NCBI RefSeq assembly: GCF_017311415.1
Contig: NZ_JAEKIS010000001.1
Coordinates: forward strand, 434,001-498,000
Length of the DNA stretch: 64,000 bases
DNA from: Salipiger abyssi
GTDB lineage: Bacteria > Pseudomonadota > Alphaproteobacteria > Rhodobacterales > Rhodobacteraceae
Direction of reading: 5' to 3'
In this document: positions 43,556-58,491 of the stretch, one piece after another
How positions within the stretch are numbered: position 1 is the first letter of the stretch
Layout of the letters: every line of letters begins with the position of its first letter
Made by a program: the position numbers and the translations under genes
The notes under the pieces: model-generated
Databases searched by the model: none
What the model saw: only the letters and a program-made list of their open reading frames with translations
What the model was told of the DNA's origin: nothing

Positions 43556-44227
43556 TCAGCGCTGGAGCATATGCATCGCCACATACCCGGTGAGCCCGCC
43601 CAGCCATTGCCGCGACGCAAGAATCTCGCCGCCCGCATCCACGACGTAGTAATCGACGAAGGGCGGGCCGTCCGGGCTTTCGCATGCGGCGATCATTTCC
43701 TGACCGTTGGTCCGGATCCGCCCCATGGCGACCTCGACGGGCTTGTCGGGCTCGACACCGCAGCGATAGGTGACTGTCTCGGTGACGCCCTCGGATGTCA
43801 GGAAACGCTGGACATAGCTGACCTGCCCGGTCCGACGTGCGCGCACCGTGTCGAGCAGCGCCTCTTCTTCCGTCGACATGAGATCTCCGCCGAGTCCGCG
43901 CGTTCCGGTGATCATGCCGTGATTCATCACGATCGACTGCCGGGTGACCGTTGCAAAGGTCTTGTACGGTCCGTTCTCTTCGATCTGGATAAGCAGCGTC
44001 TGAGAATTGCGCTCGTCGACATTGAAAAACGCCACGGGTAGCTCGGTGGCTGAAAGCGTCTGTAGGATCTGCTGCTGGGTGACGGCGGACGGAGCCTTGT
44101 CGCCGCTGAACATCAGCGAATAGATATTGGTCACCGGGTTGGTGAAATAAGGATCGTTGCTGCACCCGGCCACCGCCGCGCCGAGCCCGAGCAGGGCAGC
44201 CAGTCTGAGCATCGCGCGGGTCTTCAT
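43556..44227 (-). CDS. YjbF-family lipoprotein
   Basis: A 223-residue lipoprotein with lipobox VAGC (Cys22) matching the YjbF/GfcB-like group: NVDERNSQTLLIQIEENGPYKTFATVTRQSIVMNHGMITGTRGLGGDLMS is the recognisable core. In E. coli, yjbEFGH is an operon for an extracellular polysaccharide. It overlaps the YjbH gene by four bases, so the two are translated together. No YjbG-like gene is adjacent. Confidence 0.82.
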   Translation of the reverse strand: MKTRAMLRLAALLGLGAAVAGCSNDPYFTNPVTNIYSLMFSGDKAPSAVTQQQILQTLSATELPVAFFNVDERNSQTLLIQIEENGPYKTFATVTRQSIVMNHGMITGTRGLGGDLMSTEEEALLDTVRARRTGQVSYVQRFLTSEGVTETVTYRCGVEPDKPVEVAMGRIRTNGQEMIAACESPDGPPFVDYYVVDAGGEILASRQWLGGLTGYVAMHMLQR

Positions 44228-46371
44228 CGCCAGAACCTTCCCCAGGATTTCGCGACATCCGGCTCGTGCCAGGTGCGCACCTGCTCATAAAGCCGGTTCG
44301 ACACGTAAAGCCGTGCGCCGCCGTCTCGCTGCACCGACCGGAGTATGGTTGTATTGGTCTGGCGCGACGGCGTGCCGAGGCCGACCGACAGCGGAACCGT
44401 CAGCAGAATGCCTTTGTCGAAGGAGCCTTCGCCGAAATCGTCCTCGGAGACATCGGTGAATGTGGCAAAGGCACCGATGCGCCAGCCATTTGCAAACTCA
44501 CGATGCAGCGTGAAGGTCGCACCGTAATCGCCGGCCAGATAGCGGCCGACATCGACCTGCCCGTGAAATCCGTTGCCGAAGGCATAGTAGGCAGAGACAT
44601 GGCCGTTCACATCCGGAATCTCGCGTTCGACACCCGAGACCGGATCGACGGTCACGTTCTCCTGAAGCCCGAACATCACATCATAATCGCGCCGCCGCAC
44701 ATAGTTGAGCTCGGCGCCCAGGGCCAGACGGCTGTCCGCCGGCTTCCACAGCACTTCCGCCGAGACCCCGGCATACATTTGTTCCAGATAGCCCATGGTC
44801 AGGCGGCTGTAGAGGTTGCGGCCCGGACGCCCGTACAGATCGAGCGTCAGCGAGTCGATCGCCGGATCGCCCTCGCGGGCGTATTCGCCGTAATCGGTGC
44901 GCACGCGCGGCAGCTTCGATTCATCGACGCGGCTGATGTCGTCGAGATTGCCGACTACCTTTTTCTTGATCGAGCCCGAAAGCACGATGTTCGGCGTGAT
45001 CTCCAGTGTGCCGCTCAGTCGTGCGCCAAGGTCGATGCGCAGCGGGCTCTCGGGGTCGAAGGTCGAGTAGGCGTAGTAGGGCGCCAGCGACCAGATGAAT
45101 TTCGGATAGTCGGAGAGATCCGCCTCAGGTGCCGTGCCGAACGCGTCGGTGATCCGTGTACGGGCCAGCATCTCGACGGCCGCGTCGTTTTCAAGCGCTT
45201 CGAGATCGGAGCGGCGCAGGGTGACGGCCGACATCGCCATGCCGTTCTCTGACGGGACGATGACAAACTCTTCGACAGAGGCGGGCAACACCCGCGTCAT
45301 CACCCGCGCGGCGCGGCCGATGGCTTGCGCCGGTGCACCATAGGTCGGGTTGCGCAGCCGCAGCGTGGCTTTGCGCGGCTGGAGATCGAAACCTTCCACC
45401 TCCAGTTTTTCGCGTTCCAGGCTGGTGATCAGCCGTTGCCGCGAATTGGCTTCCGCGTTGTCGAGTGCGGCAGTCCAGCCCAGATCGCCGGCATCGCCCG
45501 GCGCGCGTACCTTGACCGGCAGACCGGCGCTTTCGTTGCCGCCCGGCGTGCCCTGGGTTTTGGGATTGATCGGAAAGGTGATCTGTGCACCGAGCGTGTT
45601 GCCATAGGCATAGTATAGCGACAGCTGAGCGTCGTTCTTGAGCCGGTAATCGACGCCGAAATTGATCGGAGAGTCATGTTCGAAGCCGCCGGAGGCACGC
45701 TCTTCGTCATAGGCGTCGGAGGAATATTCCAGCGTGAAGGTCAGCCGGTCGTTGGGTGAATAGCTGATCCCGCCGAACGGCGCGACATCGCCGCGGAACC
45801 ATCGGTCATAGGTGGGCACGCCACCGGTGCCCAGGATCGTGTCGGACCGGGCGCTGATCGTGGCCACGGAATTGTAGCTGCCCAGACGGCCCCAGCCGAG
45901 ACCGCCGGTCACCTTGAGCCCCGGTGTCAGCGTCTTGGTCGCGACGATATATTCGCCGCTATAGATGCCGGTGCCGATGAAATCCTGAAGTCCGACTGCG
46001 ACCGCCGGCCGAATTTTCGTTTCGGTGAGAAGCAGATAGCGGATATCGAAGCTGCGGTCGTAATACACGCCGTCGACACTGGACGGGTGATCGAAATTCT
46101 CGATCCCGGTATAGCGGAACGTGCCGATCAGCCGCGGGGTGATCTGAAAGCTCAGAGAGCCGCGATTGGCGTCATCCATCCGGCCATAGGTCAGACCGAG
46201 CGTGGCGTCGGGTGCTATTTCGGCGGTGGGCATGTCGATGAGGCCGGGTTGGCCATAGAGGTTGTAGCTCGGAACGCCTTCCGCGACGGCCATGCCGGGC
46301 ATGAGGCAAAGCCCCGCCATCGCGGCATAAACTCTGATCCGTCCTGCGCAAAATGCTGCCCCGGGGGTCAT
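44224..46371 (-). CDS. YjbH-family outer-membrane beta-barrel protein
   Basis: A 715-residue exported protein. The signal peptide ends near residue 30 (PGMAVAEG), and the mature start PSYNLYGQPGLIDMPTAEIAPDATLGLTYG is the hallmark of YjbH/GfcD proteins. The rest is rich in alternating beta-strands ending in aromatic residues (for example LGAELNYVRRRDYDVMFGLQ), as expected for an outer-membrane barrel. It probably helps secrete exopolysaccharide with the adjacent YjbF lipoprotein and the Wza-like channel; the exact role is unproven. Confidence 0.85.
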   Translation of the reverse strand: MTPGAAFCAGRIRVYAAMAGLCLMPGMAVAEGVPSYNLYGQPGLIDMPTAEIAPDATLGLTYGRMDDANRGSLSFQITPRLIGTFRYTGIENFDHPSSVDGVYYDRSFDIRYLLLTETKIRPAVAVGLQDFIGTGIYSGEYIVATKTLTPGLKVTGGLGWGRLGSYNSVATISARSDTILGTGGVPTYDRWFRGDVAPFGGISYSPNDRLTFTLEYSSDAYDEERASGGFEHDSPINFGVDYRLKNDAQLSLYYAYGNTLGAQITFPINPKTQGTPGGNESAGLPVKVRAPGDAGDLGWTAALDNAEANSRQRLITSLEREKLEVEGFDLQPRKATLRLRNPTYGAPAQAIGRAARVMTRVLPASVEEFVIVPSENGMAMSAVTLRRSDLEALENDAAVEMLARTRITDAFGTAPEADLSDYPKFIWSLAPYYAYSTFDPESPLRIDLGARLSGTLEITPNIVLSGSIKKKVVGNLDDISRVDESKLPRVRTDYGEYAREGDPAIDSLTLDLYGRPGRNLYSRLTMGYLEQMYAGVSAEVLWKPADSRLALGAELNYVRRRDYDVMFGLQENVTVDPVSGVEREIPDVNGHVSAYYAFGNGFHGQVDVGRYLAGDYGATFTLHREFANGWRIGAFATFTDVSEDDFGEGSFDKGILLTVPLSVGLGTPSRQTNTTILRSVQRDGGARLYVSNRLYEQVRTWHEPDVAKSWGRFWR

Positions 46372-46532: not shown

Positions 46533-46581
46533 GGGCTGCGCCCGTAGAACCTTGCCCGGGGTGTAATAAGAGGTGGTGGAA

Positions 46582-47409
46582 ATGGCGGTCGACAGCAATG
46601 TCGCGCCGGTCATCATCAAGAGGAAAAAGGTCTCTGGCGGGGACGGGCACCATGGCGGTGCCTGGAAGGTCGCCTATGCCGACTTCGTGACGGCGATGAT
46701 GGCCTTTTTCATGTTGATGTGGCTGCTGAACGCGACGACCGAAAAGCAGCGCAAGGGGCTTGCGGATTACTTCAGTCCGACCGTGGCGATCAGCCGGGTG
46801 TCCGGCGGCGGCGATGGCAGCCTGGGCGGCGAAAGCGTGTTCTCCGAAAACACCCTGCCCCGCGTGGGCACCGGCGCCACCAGCCTGCGCCCGACCTCCG
46901 AGGCGGCAGAAAGCCGAAGCATGCAGCCCGACGAGGCGCGTGCCGGTGCCGAAGAGCTCCAGCAGGTCGAGGATCTTCTGATGGGCCGCAACGGCGAAAG
47001 CATGGTCGATAACGGCTTGCTGCGCCACATCGTGACCCGCGTCACCGACGAAGGTCTGGTGGTCGAGCTGTTCGAGACCGCTGATGCGCGGCTTTTCGAC
47101 GAGGACGGGCGCCCCACCGAGCTGCTGCGCGCCTTGTCGGGTGTGATCGTGCGGGTTTCGGGCCTGGTGACCAACCCGGTCGCGGTCGAAGGCCATGTCA
47201 GCGCCTATCCCGTAGTGCTTGCCCACGATCCGTCCTGGGAAGTGTCCAGCGGTCACGCCGACCGGTTTCGGGAACTGCTGATCACAGGCGGGCTAAACAA
47301 GCGCCGGGTCGACCGGGTGACCGCACATGCCGACCGCGAACCGACCGAGCGCAATCCGATGGATCCGCGCAACAACCGGATCGAGGTCATTTTCCTGAGA
47401 CAGCGCTGA
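46582..47409 (+). CDS. motB: Flagellar stator protein MotB
   Basis: The peptidoglycan-anchored stator subunit. The 275-residue protein has one membrane helix (WKVAYADFVTAMMAFFMLMWLLNA) with the essential proton-binding Asp34 in AYADFVTAMM, a periplasmic linker, and an OmpA-like C-terminal domain (VAVEGHVSAYPVV, DRFRELLITGGLNKRRVDRV, NPMDPRNNRIEVIF). ATG 46582 follows AAGAGGTGGTGGAA; two GTG codons just upstream are less likely. It is separated from motA by the hook genes, about 5 kb away, rather than being adjacent as in enterics. Confidence 0.93.
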   Translation: MAVDSNVAPVIIKRKKVSGGDGHHGGAWKVAYADFVTAMMAFFMLMWLLNATTEKQRKGLADYFSPTVAISRVSGGGDGSLGGESVFSENTLPRVGTGATSLRPTSEAAESRSMQPDEARAGAEELQQVEDLLMGRNGESMVDNGLLRHIVTRVTDEGLVVELFETADARLFDEDGRPTELLRALSGVIVRVSGLVTNPVAVEGHVSAYPVVLAHDPSWEVSSGHADRFRELLITGGLNKRRVDRVTAHADREPTERNPMDPRNNRIEVIFLRQR

Positions 47410-52498: not shown

Positions 52499-53368
52499 AT
52501 GCTGGGGATCATCGGTATCGTTGTGATTTTTGCCATGGTGTTTGGCGGTTACATACTCGCCGGTGGCAAGATGGCGATCATTTTAAAGGCACTGCCTTTC
52601 GAGATGATGATGATCGGCGGCGCCGCGGTGGGCTCGTTTCTGATCGGTAACGATTCCAGCGTGGTGAAACATACGCTCAAGGATGTCGGCAAGGTTTTCA
52701 AAGGTGCGAAGTGGAAGCCGGCCGATTATCGCGATCTGCTTTGCCTGCTGTTCGAACTGATCCGGCTGGCGCGGCAAAGCCCGGTCGCAATCGAGGAACA
52801 TGTGGAGTCGCCGGGCGAATCGGCGATCTTCACCAAATATTCCAAGATCCAGGGCGACAAGATCGCGGTGGAGCTGATCTGCGATACGATGCGCTCCATG
52901 TCGATGAACTACGACGACCCGCATCAGGTGGAGGAGGTGCTCGACAAGCGCATCGAGGCGCTGGAGCATCATCGCCTGCATTCCAGCCACGCGCTGCAAA
53001 GCCTGGCCGACGGCCTGCCGGCGCTGGGCATCGTCGCCGCCGTGCTGGGCGTGATCAAGACCATGGGCTCGATCGACCAGCCGCCCGAGGTGCTTGGAAA
53101 GCTCATCGGCGGTGCGCTCGTCGGCACGTTTCTGGGGGTTTTCCTCGCCTATGGTTTTGCCGGCCCCTTTGCGGTGAAGGTCAAAGCCGTGGTCGAAGAC
53201 GACCTTCATTTCTACCAGCTGATCCGAGAGGTCTTGGTGGCCAACTTGCACAACCACGCCACGAATATTTGCATCGAAGTTGGACGTCAAAACACGCCGG
53301 CACATTTCCGACCAAGCTTTGTGGATCTTGAGGAGGCGCTGAAATCGGTCAAGCAGGCCGCAGCATGA
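52499..53368 (+). CDS. motA: Flagellar stator protein MotA
   Basis: The ion-channel subunit of the stator. The 289-residue protein has four membrane helices (residues ~2-20, ~32-50, ~170-190 and ~200-225), the cytoplasmic region with the rotor-facing arginine-rich helix, and the key proline in LADGLPALGIVAAVLGVIKTMG. GALVGTFLGVFLAYGFAGP is the fourth helix. ATG 52499 follows AAAGGAGCCATCCCA. The stop overlaps the following 739-residue gene (ATGA), coupling their translation. Confidence 0.95.
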   Translation: MLGIIGIVVIFAMVFGGYILAGGKMAIILKALPFEMMMIGGAAVGSFLIGNDSSVVKHTLKDVGKVFKGAKWKPADYRDLLCLLFELIRLARQSPVAIEEHVESPGESAIFTKYSKIQGDKIAVELICDTMRSMSMNYDDPHQVEEVLDKRIEALEHHRLHSSHALQSLADGLPALGIVAAVLGVIKTMGSIDQPPEVLGKLIGGALVGTFLGVFLAYGFAGPFAVKVKAVVEDDLHFYQLIREVLVANLHNHATNICIEVGRQNTPAHFRPSFVDLEEALKSVKQAAA

Positions 53369-55584
53369 TCCGGCTGGTTGTGCTCATGGCGGTGTTCCTG
53401 CTCTGGAGTGTGTCGGCATTCGCGCAAGAGATCCGTGTGCGCTCTGGCGAGCATGGCGATTTCACCCGTCTGGTGCTCGATCTTCCGCAGGACATGCAAT
53501 GGCAACTGGCGCAGCCGGACGCGCGACAGGCGGAAATCCGGTTCGAAACTGGCGGATACGCGTTCGATCTTTCCGGCGTGTTCAGCCGCATCGATCGCGC
53601 GCGCGTCGCCGATTTGTCGATGCTGCCAGAGGGGGACGGCATGCGGATCGACCTCGCTTGCGCCTGCGTGGCTTCGGCATTTCTGCTGCGGGGGCGCATG
53701 CTCGTCGTCGATATCCGACCGGGTGAACCAGCGGTGTCAGAGCCGGCACTGCCGCGTCCCGCCCTCACCGCGCTTTCGGAACTTCGGGTTGGATCGGAGC
53801 CCGGTATCGGCCCGCGAAAGACTGAAAACGCGCTTATGCCCGCTTTCGCCCCTCCGACCGTTGCAGGCACCTCCGCCGTGCCGGAAAAGTCCGGCACTGA
53901 CCCGGACGCATTCGAGCGGATGCTGTCAGAACAGCTCGCGACCGCCGCCACCGAAGGGCTGCTGGATCCGGCGCTTCGGGGTCTTCTGCGCCCGAATGCG
54001 GCGCAAGACATGCCTGCGAATGCCCAAGAGCCATCAAGGCCCGCGCCGGATGATCCTGCATCAACCGCCCGCACCGCCATCGAGGCGGAGATTGCCAGTC
54101 AGGCTTCCTACGACCTGCAATCGCGCATTCGTATCGGCGGCACCGCCTGCGTGCCCGATTCCAAGCTGGATGTGGCTGCCTGGGGTGGAGAGCAAACGCT
54201 TGAGGCAACCATCCCGGATCTGCGCGCGCGGCTTTACGGCGAATTCGACCGGCTTGATCCCGAGGTGCTGACAGCGCTGGCCAGGGCATATCTCCATATC
54301 GGATTCGGCGCCGAAGCCCGGGCGCTTCTCGAACTGAATCCGGAGCTGCGTGATCCGGTCCTTGTTGCGCTCGCCGGCATCGTCGACGGTGAGGCCGATA
54401 GGGCCGGTGTTTTTGCCGGCCAGACCGATTGCGACGGATTTGCCTCGCTATGGGCGCTGGCGGGAGCATCGGCCCTGCCCGACGGCTCCACCATAGATGG
54501 CGACGCGATCCGGCGGGCCTTCGAAAAACTACCCCTGAATCTGCGCGCCTTGCTTGGGCCGCACCTTGCCACAAGGCTCGCAGAGGAGGGCCAGCCCGGT
54601 GTCGCGCGCAACTTACTCTCGCAGCTCGCCCGCGCCATGGGCGAAAGCAGCGAAGGCATGGTTTACAGCGCGGCAAAGATCGACCGTCTGGAGGGTGCGG
54701 TGGATGAGGCGCGCGGCGTTCTCGAGGCCTTTGCGACGCGTCCAGGGGCGCATGCGCCCGACGCTGTCGTCGCCGCGATCGAGATTGCGACAGAGAGGCG
54801 CGAACCGGTCGGTGCGCGCATGACAGAGCTTTCCGCGGCTTATGCGACAGAGCTGCGCGAGACGGAAAAGGGTCCGGAGCTTTGGCGCGCGCATCTGCGC
54901 GCGACGATCGCCAATGGCGCGTATGACACGGGTTTCGGCAGCTTCTGGGATGCTGACGATATTCCAGAGCCGACCCGCGCTGCCGCGGCGACCGAGGCGC
55001 TAACGCTCCTGGCGGAGCAGGCGCCGGACACGGCATTTCTGAAACAGACCGTAGCGCGCGCAAATCGCTTCGACGGGATCGCCGCGCCGGAGGCCGCGCT
55101 TGATGTGGCAGAGCGTCTGCTCGATCTTGGCCTCGCCGATGAGGCGGCGCGCTGGGCAGAACTGACGGGCGTCGACCGCGCCGCCCGGCGCACGCGCCTG
55201 CTCACCGCCCGCATTCATCTCGCACGATCCGAACCGGAGGCCGCAGAGATCGCGCTGATCGGCTTGCAAGGCGAGGATGTGCTGCGTCTGCGGGCGGAAG
55301 CGCGGCGCATGATGGGCGATTTCGATTATGCCAGTACCGCCTACGATACGCTGGGCGAGGCACAGCAAGCCCGCTCCGCCGCCTGGCTCGCCGGCGACTG
55401 GCCGGCGCTCGATGGCGCGCAGGACACGCTGGGGGTCACCGCTGCGCTCATCCGCTCCGATCTTCCCGAGGCCGAGGACCCCCTGCCGAGCCTAGCGCTT
55501 GCCGAACGGCTCGCCGGCACCGGGGCCGAAACACGTGATGCCTTGCGCGCTCTGCTCGAGGACACCCGCCTGCCGAGAGACTAA
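53365..55584 (+). CDS. Large secreted protein of unknown function coupled to motA
   Basis: A 739-residue protein with a Sec signal peptide (residues 1-20, ending SAFA). Residues ~21-115 look like a small beta-sandwich of AMIN type (IRVRSGEHGDFTRLVLDLP to LLRGRMLVVDIRPG). A proline/alanine-rich linker follows, then from ~270 to the end an alanine-rich all-helical region with helix pairs reminiscent of TPR or Sel1 repeats (VLTALARAYLHIGFGAEARALL; LLTARIHLARSEPEAAEIAL). I do not recognise a named family. Overlap with motA and its place before the transglycosylase and flhA suggest a periplasmic motor or stator-assembly factor, comparable in position to rhizobial MotC; this is inference. Confidence 0.8.
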   Translation: MIRLVVLMAVFLLWSVSAFAQEIRVRSGEHGDFTRLVLDLPQDMQWQLAQPDARQAEIRFETGGYAFDLSGVFSRIDRARVADLSMLPEGDGMRIDLACACVASAFLLRGRMLVVDIRPGEPAVSEPALPRPALTALSELRVGSEPGIGPRKTENALMPAFAPPTVAGTSAVPEKSGTDPDAFERMLSEQLATAATEGLLDPALRGLLRPNAAQDMPANAQEPSRPAPDDPASTARTAIEAEIASQASYDLQSRIRIGGTACVPDSKLDVAAWGGEQTLEATIPDLRARLYGEFDRLDPEVLTALARAYLHIGFGAEARALLELNPELRDPVLVALAGIVDGEADRAGVFAGQTDCDGFASLWALAGASALPDGSTIDGDAIRRAFEKLPLNLRALLGPHLATRLAEEGQPGVARNLLSQLARAMGESSEGMVYSAAKIDRLEGAVDEARGVLEAFATRPGAHAPDAVVAAIEIATERREPVGARMTELSAAYATELRETEKGPELWRAHLRATIANGAYDTGFGSFWDADDIPEPTRAAAATEALTLLAEQAPDTAFLKQTVARANRFDGIAAPEAALDVAERLLDLGLADEAARWAELTGVDRAARRTRLLTARIHLARSEPEAAEIALIGLQGEDVLRLRAEARRMMGDFDYASTAYDTLGEAQQARSAAWLAGDWPALDGAQDTLGVTAALIRSDLPEAEDPLPSLALAERLAGTGAETRDALRALLEDTRLPRD

Positions 55585-55660
55585 CCGGGCGCGGGCTTAC
55601 GAAAAATAAACCTCGCCGCGATAGCGGTTGGAAACGAACTCGGAAACCCGGTGGATCAGA

Positions 55661-56407
55661 ATGGTCTTTCCCGACAGCGACAGGACAGATGGCGACAGAT
55701 TTCGCAGGCGACCACGATGCGCTGCGCGGTGGCTGGCAAGGTTGATCTATCTGGTCCTGACGCTCAGCACGATCTGCATGTTCGCCCTCCCGGTGCCGGC
55801 GGCCCCGTCGGCGATTTGCGACCGCGCAGCACAGGAGGCATCGCGGCAGACGGGCGTTCCGATCGAGGTGCTGATGGCGATCACCCGGGCAGAGACAGGG
55901 CGGGCGCGGAACGGCCAGACCCGTCCCTGGCCCTGGACGATCAATGTGCAGGGCGAGGGGCATTGGTTTGGCACGCGGCATGCGGCACGGCAGCACGCGG
56001 TGGCCACCTTCGCAAAGGGCATCCGCAGCTTTGATCTGGGCTGTTTCCAGATCAATTATCGCTGGCACGGCGGCGCCTTTCGGTCGCTGGAGGAGATGCT
56101 CGACCCGACGGCGAATGCGCTCTACGCCGCGCGCTTCCTGCGCAGGCTTCATAAGGAAACCGGTAGCTGGACAGAGGCGGCAGGCGCCTATCATAGCCGC
56201 ACCCCGAAATATGCCGAGCGCTACAAGCGCCGCTACCGCGCCATGCATGCCAGCCTGTCGTCGGAGCACACAGATAACGAGTCTCCCGCGCGTGTCGCGC
56301 GTGTCAACCGCTTCCCGCTGCTGCGTCGCGAAGGCGTTGCTGCCCGTGCCTCACTCGCGCCGCTGGCCGAGGGCGCGAGTGCCTTTCTTCCCGGGTTGGG
56401 AGGCTGA
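55661..56407 (+). CDS. Lytic transglycosylase, SltF-like
   Basis: A 248-residue exported protein with an N-terminal hydrophobic segment (LARLIYLVLTLSTICMFALPVPAAP) and an SLT domain. The catalytic glutamate is probably in MAITRAETGRARNG, followed by GIRSFDLGCFQINYRWHGGAF and TGSWTEAAGAYHS. Rhodobacter SltF is a flagellum-dedicated enzyme that opens peptidoglycan for the rod; the setting between motA and flhA fits that role. The start is uncertain: ATG 55661 is used, TTG 55628 would add 11 residues. It ends two bases before flhA. Confidence 0.82.
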   Translation: MVFPDSDRTDGDRFRRRPRCAARWLARLIYLVLTLSTICMFALPVPAAPSAICDRAAQEASRQTGVPIEVLMAITRAETGRARNGQTRPWPWTINVQGEGHWFGTRHAARQHAVATFAKGIRSFDLGCFQINYRWHGGAFRSLEEMLDPTANALYAARFLRRLHKETGSWTEAAGAYHSRTPKYAERYKRRYRAMHASLSSEHTDNESPARVARVNRFPLLRREGVAARASLAPLAEGASAFLPGLGG

Positions 56408-56409
56408 GC

Positions 56410-58491
56410 ATGCCGGAGGCCCCTGCCCCGCTCTTCAAACCGACGGTGCTGCTCGCGGTCGCGCTGATGGCGGTCATCGTGATGATGATCCTGCCGGTGC
56501 CGGCCTGGGTGCTGGATGTCGGGCTTGCCGCCTCCTTCGGCCTGGCGATCCTGATCTTCACGGTCACGCTCTTCATCGAACGCCCGCTCGATTTCTCCGC
56601 CTTCCCGACCATCCTGCTCGCCTCGCTCATGCTGCGCCTCTCGCTCAATGTCAGCTCGACCAAGCTGATCATCGGCGAGGGCCATACCGGCACCTCCGCC
56701 GCCGGCGACGTGATCGAGGGGTTCGCCAATTTTGTTATGGGCGGCAGCGTCTTCCTCGGTCTCGTGGTCTTTGGCGTGCTGATGATCGTGAATTTCGCGG
56801 TGATCACCAAGGGCGCTGCCCGCATGGCCGAGGTCGGGGCGCGCTTCGCGCTCGACGGCATGCCGGGCAAGCAGCTCGCCATTGACAGCGACATGTCCGC
56901 CGGCGCCATCGACCACGCCGAGGCCAAGGCCCGCCGCGAACGTGAACAGCAGGAGACGACGTTTTTCGGCTCGCTCGACGGCGCGTCGAAATTCGTCAAG
57001 GGCGACGCTGTTGCCGGGCTGCTCATCACGCTGCTCAATCTTGTGATGGGCATGGTGATGGGGATTTTCGGCCATGGCATGGCGCTTTCCCATGCGTTCG
57101 AGACCTATGCGATCCTCACGGTGGGCGACGGGCTGGTGACGCAGATCCCCGCGGTGATCATCTCCATCGCCTCGGGGCTGCTGCTGGCACGCGGCGGCGC
57201 CACCGGCGCCACCGATGTCGCCATGGCCGGGCAACTTGCGCGGCACCCGGCGGCGCTCGGCACGGTCGGCGTGCTGATGGCGCTCTTTGCGCTGGTGCCC
57301 GGCATGCCCTTCCTGCCCTTCATCCTCGGTGCCGGTGTCCTGGGTGGGCTCGCCGTCTATATGGCGCGCAAACAGGCGGAGCCGCCAGCGCCGCCCGAAC
57401 CCGAAGCGGAGGAAGAGGCGCCGCGCGAGCGTCCGCTCGGAGATGTGCTGGATGTGGACGAGATCCATGTCGAATTCGCGCCGGATCTGGTGAACATGGT
57501 GCTCGACCCCGGCACGGGGCTCGATGTGCGGATCGACAATATGCGCCGCCATATCGCCTCGGGGTTCGGGCTCATCCTGCCCGAGATCCGGCTGACCGAT
57601 GCCGCCGCGCTGGAAACCGGCGCCTATGTCATCCGCATCCATGGGGTGGAGATCGCGCGGGGCGAGCTGAACCCGGATCTGGTGCTGGCGCTGATGCCCG
57701 AAGAGCATGGCCGCCTGCCCGACGGGCGCGATGTGACAGAGCCGGTCTATGGCGCCCCTGCGCGTTGGATCCGTCCTCAGGATCAGGACCGCGCGGCGAT
57801 CACTGGCGCCACCATCGTCACCCCGACCGAGGTGCTGGCCACCCACCTTCTGGAGGTGATCAAGCGCAATTTCGGCCGGTTGCTGACACTGAAAGCCCTG
57901 CGCCGGCTGCTCGACGAGATGGTTTCTCTCTCCAACGCCGCCCGGGCCGAAGCGAACCGCCGGCTGCTCGACGAGTTGATCCCCGACAAGGTGCCAATCG
58001 ACACGCTGCACCAAGTGCTGCGGCTGTTGCTGGAGGAGCAGGTCAGCATCCGCAACCTGCCGCTGATCCTCGAGGCGATCTCGGAGATGCGCGGCCAGCA
58101 GATCGGCCCCGAGGCGATCTGCGAACATGTGCGCCAGCGCCTTGGCTTCCAGCTCGTCGCCGGCATGCGCCGCAAGGACGGGACGATCCCTCTGATCCAG
58201 CTGGCGCCGGAATGGGAGGATACCTTCGCCACCTATCAGGTCGAGGGTGCGCGCGGCGGGCTCGACGTGGCGCTGCCGCCCGAGATGTTCGATACGCTCA
58301 CCGCCGGCGTTGCCGACGAGATCGGTGCGGCGGGCAATCGCGGCATTTTCCCGGCGCTGGTCACCAGCGCCCGCCGCCGCCGTTTCCTGCGCACGATCCT
58401 GTCTGCCAAAGGCATCGGCAACCCGGTGCTCTCCTTTGAGGAAATCGGGGTGGAGGCGCGGCCCTCGCTGGTCGGCGTGGTGGCGGCATGA
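56410..58491 (+). CDS. flhA: Flagellar type III export protein FlhA
   Basis: The nonameric export-gate component. The 693-residue protein has about eight N-terminal membrane helices with the FHIPEP-family signature (LRLSLNVSSTKLIIGEGHTG) and the FVMGGSVFLGLVVFGVLMIVNFAVITKGAARMAEVGARFALDGMPGKQ loop. A large cytosolic domain from about residue 340 receives chaperone-substrate complexes. Length is normal. It overlaps fliR by four bases. Confidence 0.97.
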   Translation: MPEAPAPLFKPTVLLAVALMAVIVMMILPVPAWVLDVGLAASFGLAILIFTVTLFIERPLDFSAFPTILLASLMLRLSLNVSSTKLIIGEGHTGTSAAGDVIEGFANFVMGGSVFLGLVVFGVLMIVNFAVITKGAARMAEVGARFALDGMPGKQLAIDSDMSAGAIDHAEAKARREREQQETTFFGSLDGASKFVKGDAVAGLLITLLNLVMGMVMGIFGHGMALSHAFETYAILTVGDGLVTQIPAVIISIASGLLLARGGATGATDVAMAGQLARHPAALGTVGVLMALFALVPGMPFLPFILGAGVLGGLAVYMARKQAEPPAPPEPEAEEEAPRERPLGDVLDVDEIHVEFAPDLVNMVLDPGTGLDVRIDNMRRHIASGFGLILPEIRLTDAAALETGAYVIRIHGVEIARGELNPDLVLALMPEEHGRLPDGRDVTEPVYGAPARWIRPQDQDRAAITGATIVTPTEVLATHLLEVIKRNFGRLLTLKALRRLLDEMVSLSNAARAEANRRLLDELIPDKVPIDTLHQVLRLLLEEQVSIRNLPLILEAISEMRGQQIGPEAICEHVRQRLGFQLVAGMRRKDGTIPLIQLAPEWEDTFATYQVEGARGGLDVALPPEMFDTLTAGVADEIGAAGNRGIFPALVTSARRRRFLRTILSAKGIGNPVLSFEEIGVEARPSLVGVVAA

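Follow-up and report, generated by a model that had tools for sequence, protein, structure and literature searches.

The closest described counterpart of the gene examined here is MotK of Cereibacter sphaeroides (RSWS8N_12065, Q3IY86), published in 2024 as a periplasmic protein that binds MotE and MotB2 and whose localisation depends on MotA2/MotB2; the available text of that paper describes the motK mutant as paralysed yet bearing filaments, with near-normal extracellular hook protein (PMC10954123). In Phaeobacter inhibens, mutants of the conserved protein CP4 (PGA1_c35690; 2025) were reported to be immotile (PMC12363192, available text). A third point of reference is PflA of Campylobacter jejuni, which the accessible parts of two papers describe as an AMIN-like beta-sandwich followed by a flexible linker that wraps PflB and by 16-17 TPRs, PDB entry 9HMF being the scaffold model (PMC12222027, PMC11870540). 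A 2026 review, as far as its accessible text goes, already likens MotK to the PflA spokes (PMC13023049). Here we analyse a gene of Salipiger abyssi that lies directly 3' of motA within a flagellar locus. It belongs to a stretch of 64,000 nucleotides (the window: forward-strand positions 434,001 to 498,000 of contig NZ_JAEKIS010000001.1) from a genome of 5.2 Mb; window features are on the + strand unless stated otherwise.

The gene occupies positions 53365..55584, is open for 739 codons and encodes 739 residues. We conclude that it is motK and, the family having already been published, that it adds one more member to a protein kind already described. A reading made earlier from the sequence alone (the sequence-only reading) had recognised no named family; that view was rejected because MotK, and by gene position CP4, are already in print. 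The protein matches a 652-residue open reading frame (ORF) 3' of motA in another genome (G051; start taken nearest the motA stop) with an E-value of 1.6e-44 and 30% identity over residues 7-597, its own last 140 residues remaining unaligned. The same genome encodes a MotE ORF of 185 residues. A further homologue, matched at E 1.5e-30, is found in a genome (G035) that we take to be probably Dinoroseobacter shibae. The published lengths of C. sphaeroides MotK and MotE are 652 and 185 residues, and the authors of MotK proposed Dshi_3259 of D. shibae as a homologue (PMC10954123, available text). Because both ORF lengths equal the published ones, we infer that G051 is C. sphaeroides and that its 652-residue ORF is MotK.

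The start of the gene overlaps the end of motA (52499..53368, 289 residues, ATG 52499 being its most likely start): the motA stop ends at 53368, and the motK ATG and motA TGA share the four nucleotides ATGA at 53365-53368. From this gene order, the overlap suggests that translation of MotK is coupled with that of MotA. The sequence-only reading had described this overlap and frame correctly, as it had the position of the gene ahead of a transglycosylase gene and flhA. The former, slt, lies at 55628..56407 in the position of sltF, with an uncertain start codon, and flhA at 56410..58491 (PF00771 match at G000:C1:490473-492452).

The predicted protein is built of an exported AMIN domain, a linker and a helical solenoid, much as had been read from the sequence (a signal peptide, an AMIN-like domain, a linker and about 450 helical residues). 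The putative Sec signal peptide was assigned by eye to residues 1-20 (53365..53424), a hydrophobic N-terminus ending SAFA/Q. The mature protein was modelled with AlphaFold2 using 70 named homologues (alignment A4 without 7 of 77), giving a mean predicted local distance difference test score (pLDDT) of 87.9 and a predicted template modelling score of 0.67. The model places nine strands in mature residues 2-99, then a linker that is mostly of low confidence as far as residue 230 or so and contains a helix (160-176). Further helices run from 250 to 713 and make up a helical part of about 460 residues. Model residues 1-100 superpose on 4bin (AmiC) with a VIA-align Z of 11.5 and a root-mean-square deviation (rmsd) of 2.5 over 99 residues, which defines the AMIN domain (residues 21-120, 53425..53724). 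The TPR-like solenoid (residues 270-733, 54172..55563; pLDDT mostly >90) matches many TPR and PPR chains at Z 10-13 (TPR up to 13.1), unspecific values that helical repeats often reach. Among PDB entries, Foldseek ranked chain 9hmf_K first, three orders of magnitude ahead of the next match (E 2.3e-8 against 7.1e-5). The chain belongs to the periplasmic scaffold of C. jejuni, and from its 773 residues it would be PflA without its signal peptide. A sequence profile search of the PDB did not list PflA, and PflB (9leq_B) came up at a non-significant E of 1.3, in a search that was not aimed at PflB. A coatomer epsilon match in the same search (5.5e-5) was rejected as reflecting the TPR repeats.

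Conservation was measured over 98 sequences, the window protein included and three contig-edge fragments left out. The mean information per column was 1.9 bits in the AMIN domain, 1.5 in the TPR part, 0.8 and 1.0 in two linker stretches, and 2.0 in a helix within the linker. The linker itself (residues 121-249, 53725..54111) is proline-rich, mostly disordered, of low pLDDT and marked by many alignment gaps; the conservation of its prolines is probably an alignment artefact. Its conserved helix spans residues 180-202 (53902..53970; consensus LxxQLxRAAxQGLL), and residues 191-200 average 2.7 bits per column compared with 0.3-1.6 in the other ten-column linker blocks. A short linker profile also matched the window protein at 414-425 (E 0.028), probably spuriously. 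Four residues, R35 of the AMIN domain, C262, E317 and C356, occur in all 98 sequences, A20 at the end of the signal peptide occurs in 87, and each cysteine of the AMIN motif C99-x-C101 (53659..53667) in 90. Since the protein is exported, its paired cysteines may form disulfides, with C262 (54148..54150) and C356 (54430..54432) as candidate partners.

The sequence-only reading had raised the questions whether the motA overlap is conserved across Rhodobacterales and whether homologues occur away from flagellar genes or in non-flagellated relatives; the first is answered in the affirmative and the second in the negative by the following counts. Among 149 Rhodobacteraceae genomes, that of the window included, 101 encode a MotK homologue, so that a chance ORF was rejected, and 122 encode FlhA. 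All 101 are among the 122 flhA-positive genomes, and none of the 27 flhA-negative genomes has a homologue; a profile search of 20 of these 27 found no MotK match either, and a non-flagellar function was rejected on this co-occurrence. Out of 100 homologous loci, 97 could be tested for the upstream gene, and motA lies directly upstream of motK in every one of them; the remaining three are contig ends or have a MotK frame that begins at a contig edge. The junction is a 4-nucleotide overlap in 83 loci, a 1-nucleotide overlap in 13 and a 3-nucleotide gap in one, counts in which overlap is favoured by taking each start codon nearest the motA stop. In 77 named loci, a sample that shares some genomes with the 100, motA is directly upstream in 77/77 (4-nucleotide overlap in 69, 1-nucleotide overlap in five, gaps of 1-3 nucleotides in three, with start codons chosen in the same way). 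Of the 100 loci, 85 also contain a MotE ORF, which in 84 cases lies on the strand of motA and within -130 to +300 nucleotides of it. In nine loci (L033-L039, L041 and L118), as in the window, flgI is the first gene recognised ahead of motA, and the stretch examined yielded neither MotE nor FliF. A plasmid search with the window protein returned one record, from Paroceanicella profunda.

We consider it very probable that MotK serves the flagellar motor of Rhodobacterales, which is vertically inherited, as its AMIN-TPR spoke, in an assembly that recruits or activates the MotA/MotB stators. After export to the periplasm, the TPR rod would form a bridge between MotB and the ring of MotE at the MS-ring, and the AMIN domain would reach outward and fix the protein to the wall or scaffold, perhaps by binding peptidoglycan; the stators would stay at the motor and open, and without MotK a flagellum would be built but would not turn. 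The paralysis of a C. sphaeroides mutant that retains filaments fits such a spoke or stator role, and with its binding of MotB2 and MotE (PMC10954123, available text) it supports the stator anchor or assembly factor proposed by the sequence-only reading. The published phenotypes of CP4 (immotile mutants) and of the Caulobacter protein FssB (a paralysed mutant) also count in favour. Periplasmic location, binding of the MotE and MotB2 counterparts and mutant paralysis may be expected in S. abyssi by analogy with this homologue, and the spoke geometry and the function in this species are predictions of the same kind. The presumed partner is the product of the window motB (46573..47409; PF13677 match at G000:C1:480621-480779). 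A ring partner of the MotE/FlgY/FlbB type is also present in the genome, its MotE matching MgtE_N at 1.4e-6 (above the cut-off) and FlbB-collar at 6.6e-8 (below the cut-off).

Several observations weigh against this reading. Window MotK has no accepted match in Pfam or NCBIfam, and neither the TPR nor the AMIN model of Pfam matches it; among 17 family members, TPR_19 matches five and the AMIN-like model six (E up to 0.1). Compared with its best named homologue, from Salipiger pentaromativorans, MotK is 61% identical, MotA 94% and FlhA 93%; on these identities, MotK is apparently diverging far faster than its neighbours, which may explain its escape from the family models. The 9hmf_K alignment is loose (template modelling score 0.16, rmsd 39.6) and weak on its own, and the chain is not among the 50 VIA-align matches listed; a long flexible solenoid would give such an alignment, and the match supports the domain order rather than a superposition. 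In C. sphaeroides, the interaction of MotK with MotB2 was weaker than that of MotE with MotB2, and none with FliL2 was detected, according to the available text (PMC10954123). The single-sequence search found no match in 21 of the 122 flhA-positive genomes. A profile search of those 21 added a full match in G125 and, in G039, a match confined to the AMIN domain, the two genomes being FlhA-positive; 13 of the 21 have an FlhA scoring >770 bits, nearer the second FlhA of the window's genome (810.6) than the FlhA of the window (725.8), and three others (G008, G028 and G098) are 82-86% complete. The usual linkage motE-motA-motK is broken in the window's genome, where motE belongs to a fliP-fliH-fliF/fliL/pflI/motE block, normally found ahead of motA, on the same contig (G000:C1:328178-333041), about 154 kb from motK. 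Finally, the P. inhibens CP4 mutant secretes a reduced set of flagellar proteins (PMC12363192, available text), which hints at an assembly defect absent from the C. sphaeroides mutant; polar effects are possible because complementation used the whole CP4 operon.

This secretion phenotype is also the best argument for an alternative in which the protein is an assembly or export factor for completion of the rod, hook or filament, for example by guiding the adjacent transglycosylase, and loss of rotation is secondary. The position of the gene ahead of slt and flhA would agree with such a role, as would the placing of CP1-4 at different assembly stages by the P. inhibens authors (PMC12363192, available text). 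It is nevertheless hard to reconcile with the filaments and near-normal extracellular hook protein of the paralysed C. sphaeroides mutant, and only 50 of the 100 loci have an slt match in the 3.5 kb that follow (in six of the 100 the stretch leaves little sequence there), compared with motA upstream of motK at every testable locus. We regard this alternative as improbable.

It is less credible still that the gene is a member of the rhizobial MotC family and that no separate family exists. MotC resembles MotK in being periplasmic, dependent on the same partner MotE, made of TPRs and required for rotation, as the available text of the papers has it (PMC10954123, PMC13023049), and the 2026 review calls the two homologues despite great divergence (PMC13023049). 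However, the accessible part of that review describes MotC as lacking an AMIN domain, and a profile of 71 MotK proteins gave an hhalign probability of 0.4% (E 0.13) against one annotated Phyllobacterium MotC, a weak comparison with a single sequence. To judge by the papers, the MotC analogy drawn in the sequence-only reading was of the right kind, although the comparison with that one sequence gave no similarity. An equally remote prospect is a peptidoglycan-remodelling adaptor, with the AMIN and TPR parts clearing or marking the wall at the motor and only an indirect effect on stators. The AMIN fold would suit it, as would the transglycosylase gene that half of the loci have close by. It sits poorly, though, with a start that at almost every locus overlaps the end of motA rather than slt, and with a homologue that interacts with MotB2 and needs MotA2/MotB2 to localise (PMC10954123, available text).

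Within the spoke reading, we tentatively put forward a more specific arrangement, which we think possible but would not expect to hold in full: that Rhodobacterales MotK is a single-protein spoke in which the linker helix (180-202), steadied by the two cysteine pairs that the longer alphaproteobacterial relatives lack, would clamp MotB or MotE directly, with no PflB to be wrapped, and in which MotA-coupled translation keeps spoke and stator in step. The helix and the cysteine pairs offer two concrete targets for mutagenesis.

The same genome carries a second flagellar set. At locus L150, a second MotE-like ORF (G000:C4:109400-110047, - strand) is 35% identical to the first over 120 residues, and a 117-residue ORF occupies the pflI position beside it. 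The second set also includes, between flgE and flgF, a 625-residue ORF (G000:C4:126507-128384, - strand; L151:8508-10385) whose N-terminus resembles a signal peptide; by eye it seems to be helical, and it has no Pfam or NCBIfam match. Judged by position, the hypothetical protein WP_156876196.1 has the same place in S. abyssi plasmid pPABY5. The 625-residue ORF may serve the second motor as its spoke. Its candidacy as a MotK paralogue was unsupported (hhalign probability 8.5%; no match of the AMIN, linker or TPR profiles at a domain E of 0.05). In G039, the AMIN-only match (G039:C1:703350-703697, locus L236) falls in a 362-residue frame just upstream of a second flhA. Ahead of motB in the window, positions 43556-46371 on the - strand hold a lipoprotein-like ORF and a 715-residue secreted-looking ORF, together a candidate exopolysaccharide outer-membrane pair.

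The sequence-only reading had called the protein lineage-specific, which holds for the form directly after motA, found in Rhodobacterales, and does not hold for the wider family. A profile (A1, built without 14 of the 101 proteins) matched at E <=0.001 in 114 of 240 alphaproteobacterial genomes, at most four candidates being scored per genome; most of the matches listed fall in frames of about 1000-1400 residues. We inspected 20 loci picked among the best-scoring matches, not at random. A MotE-like gene was present in 19 (not L256) and the full MotK profile matched in 19 (not L258). Of the 18 loci with both, 17 have no motA between them and motE as the next recognised gene upstream, save a weak motB match in L254; L247 has motA between. 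The 19 long relatives, about 980-1350 residues in length, have two AMIN matches in ten cases (in fragments in L260), one in seven and none in L247 and L248 (domain E 0.05). Eighteen of them show neither a cysteine beyond residue 197 nor a linker-helix match, whereas L247 has both and looks intermediate between the long relatives and the Rhodobacterales form, which is set apart by its conserved cysteines and linker helix. According to the available text, BLAST shows no similarity between motK and the Caulobacter genes, and the MotK authors relied on structure (PMC10954123); the relation of such long proteins to MotK is visible by profile.

A link with P. inhibens can also be drawn. The published order there is fliF-fliL-CP2-CP3-motA-CP4, with CP4 between motA and sltF-flhA (PMC12363192, available text). 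The window shares the order motA-CP4-sltF-flhA, unlike P. inhibens in that pflI and motE sit elsewhere in the genome, and we propose, P. inhibens being likened through its published gene order, that window motK is CP4 by gene position. In Phaeobacter sp. L219, a block of fliL, a pflI-like gene, motE, motA and motK, with fliP/N/H/F on the other side, parallels the P. inhibens order; by this parallel, CP3 appears to correspond to MotE and CP2 to the pflI-like gene. What speaks against equating CP4 with MotK outright is that L219 gave no slt or flhA match in the 5.8 kb downstream. CP1-4 were stated to be exclusive to the fla1 clusters of Rhodobacterales (PMC12363192, available text). Should CP3 be MotE, such exclusivity would be at odds with the MotE annotated in Phyllobacterium, which has a weak similarity to the MotE of the window's genome (E 6.6e-5 in a four-sequence set). 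Neither MotK nor MotE is mentioned in the accessible text of the 2025 paper (PMC12363192), and our literature search found no paper joining MotK with the phrase 'conserved protein CP4'. As far as we searched, the CP4-MotK and CP3-MotE links, the alphaproteobacterial sequence bridge, and the linker helix with the cysteine pairs are new. The first of these would join two literatures, placing the order-specific CP4, published without a known function, at the MotK position and making CP3 an apparent E-ring protein. The Rhodobacterales MotK profile, which reaches AMIN-TPR proteins near motE elsewhere in Alphaproteobacteria, provides a sequence handle on the spoke-and-ring scaffold outside Campylobacterota and spirochaetes.

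Compared with these systems, the window protein is most like C. sphaeroides MotK, in sequence (through the G051 ORF), in the order AMIN-linker-TPR, in its putative signal peptide and in its place directly after motA; it differs in length (739 against 652 residues), in sharing 30% identity and in having motE at a distance rather than beside motA. With C. jejuni PflA (9HMF), MotK shares the N-terminal beta-sandwich or AMIN domain, the linker, the TPR solenoid and a ring partner of the MotE/FlgY type, unlike PflA in that the linker of the latter wraps PflB. The long alphaproteobacterial relatives match the MotK profile and lie near motE but are longer, often have two AMIN domains and mostly have no motA between. 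Caulobacter crescentus FssB (CC_2058), by its published description a secreted TPR protein whose mutant is paralysed (PMC7885107, available text), resembles MotK in its TPRs, its export and the paralysis of a homologue's mutant.

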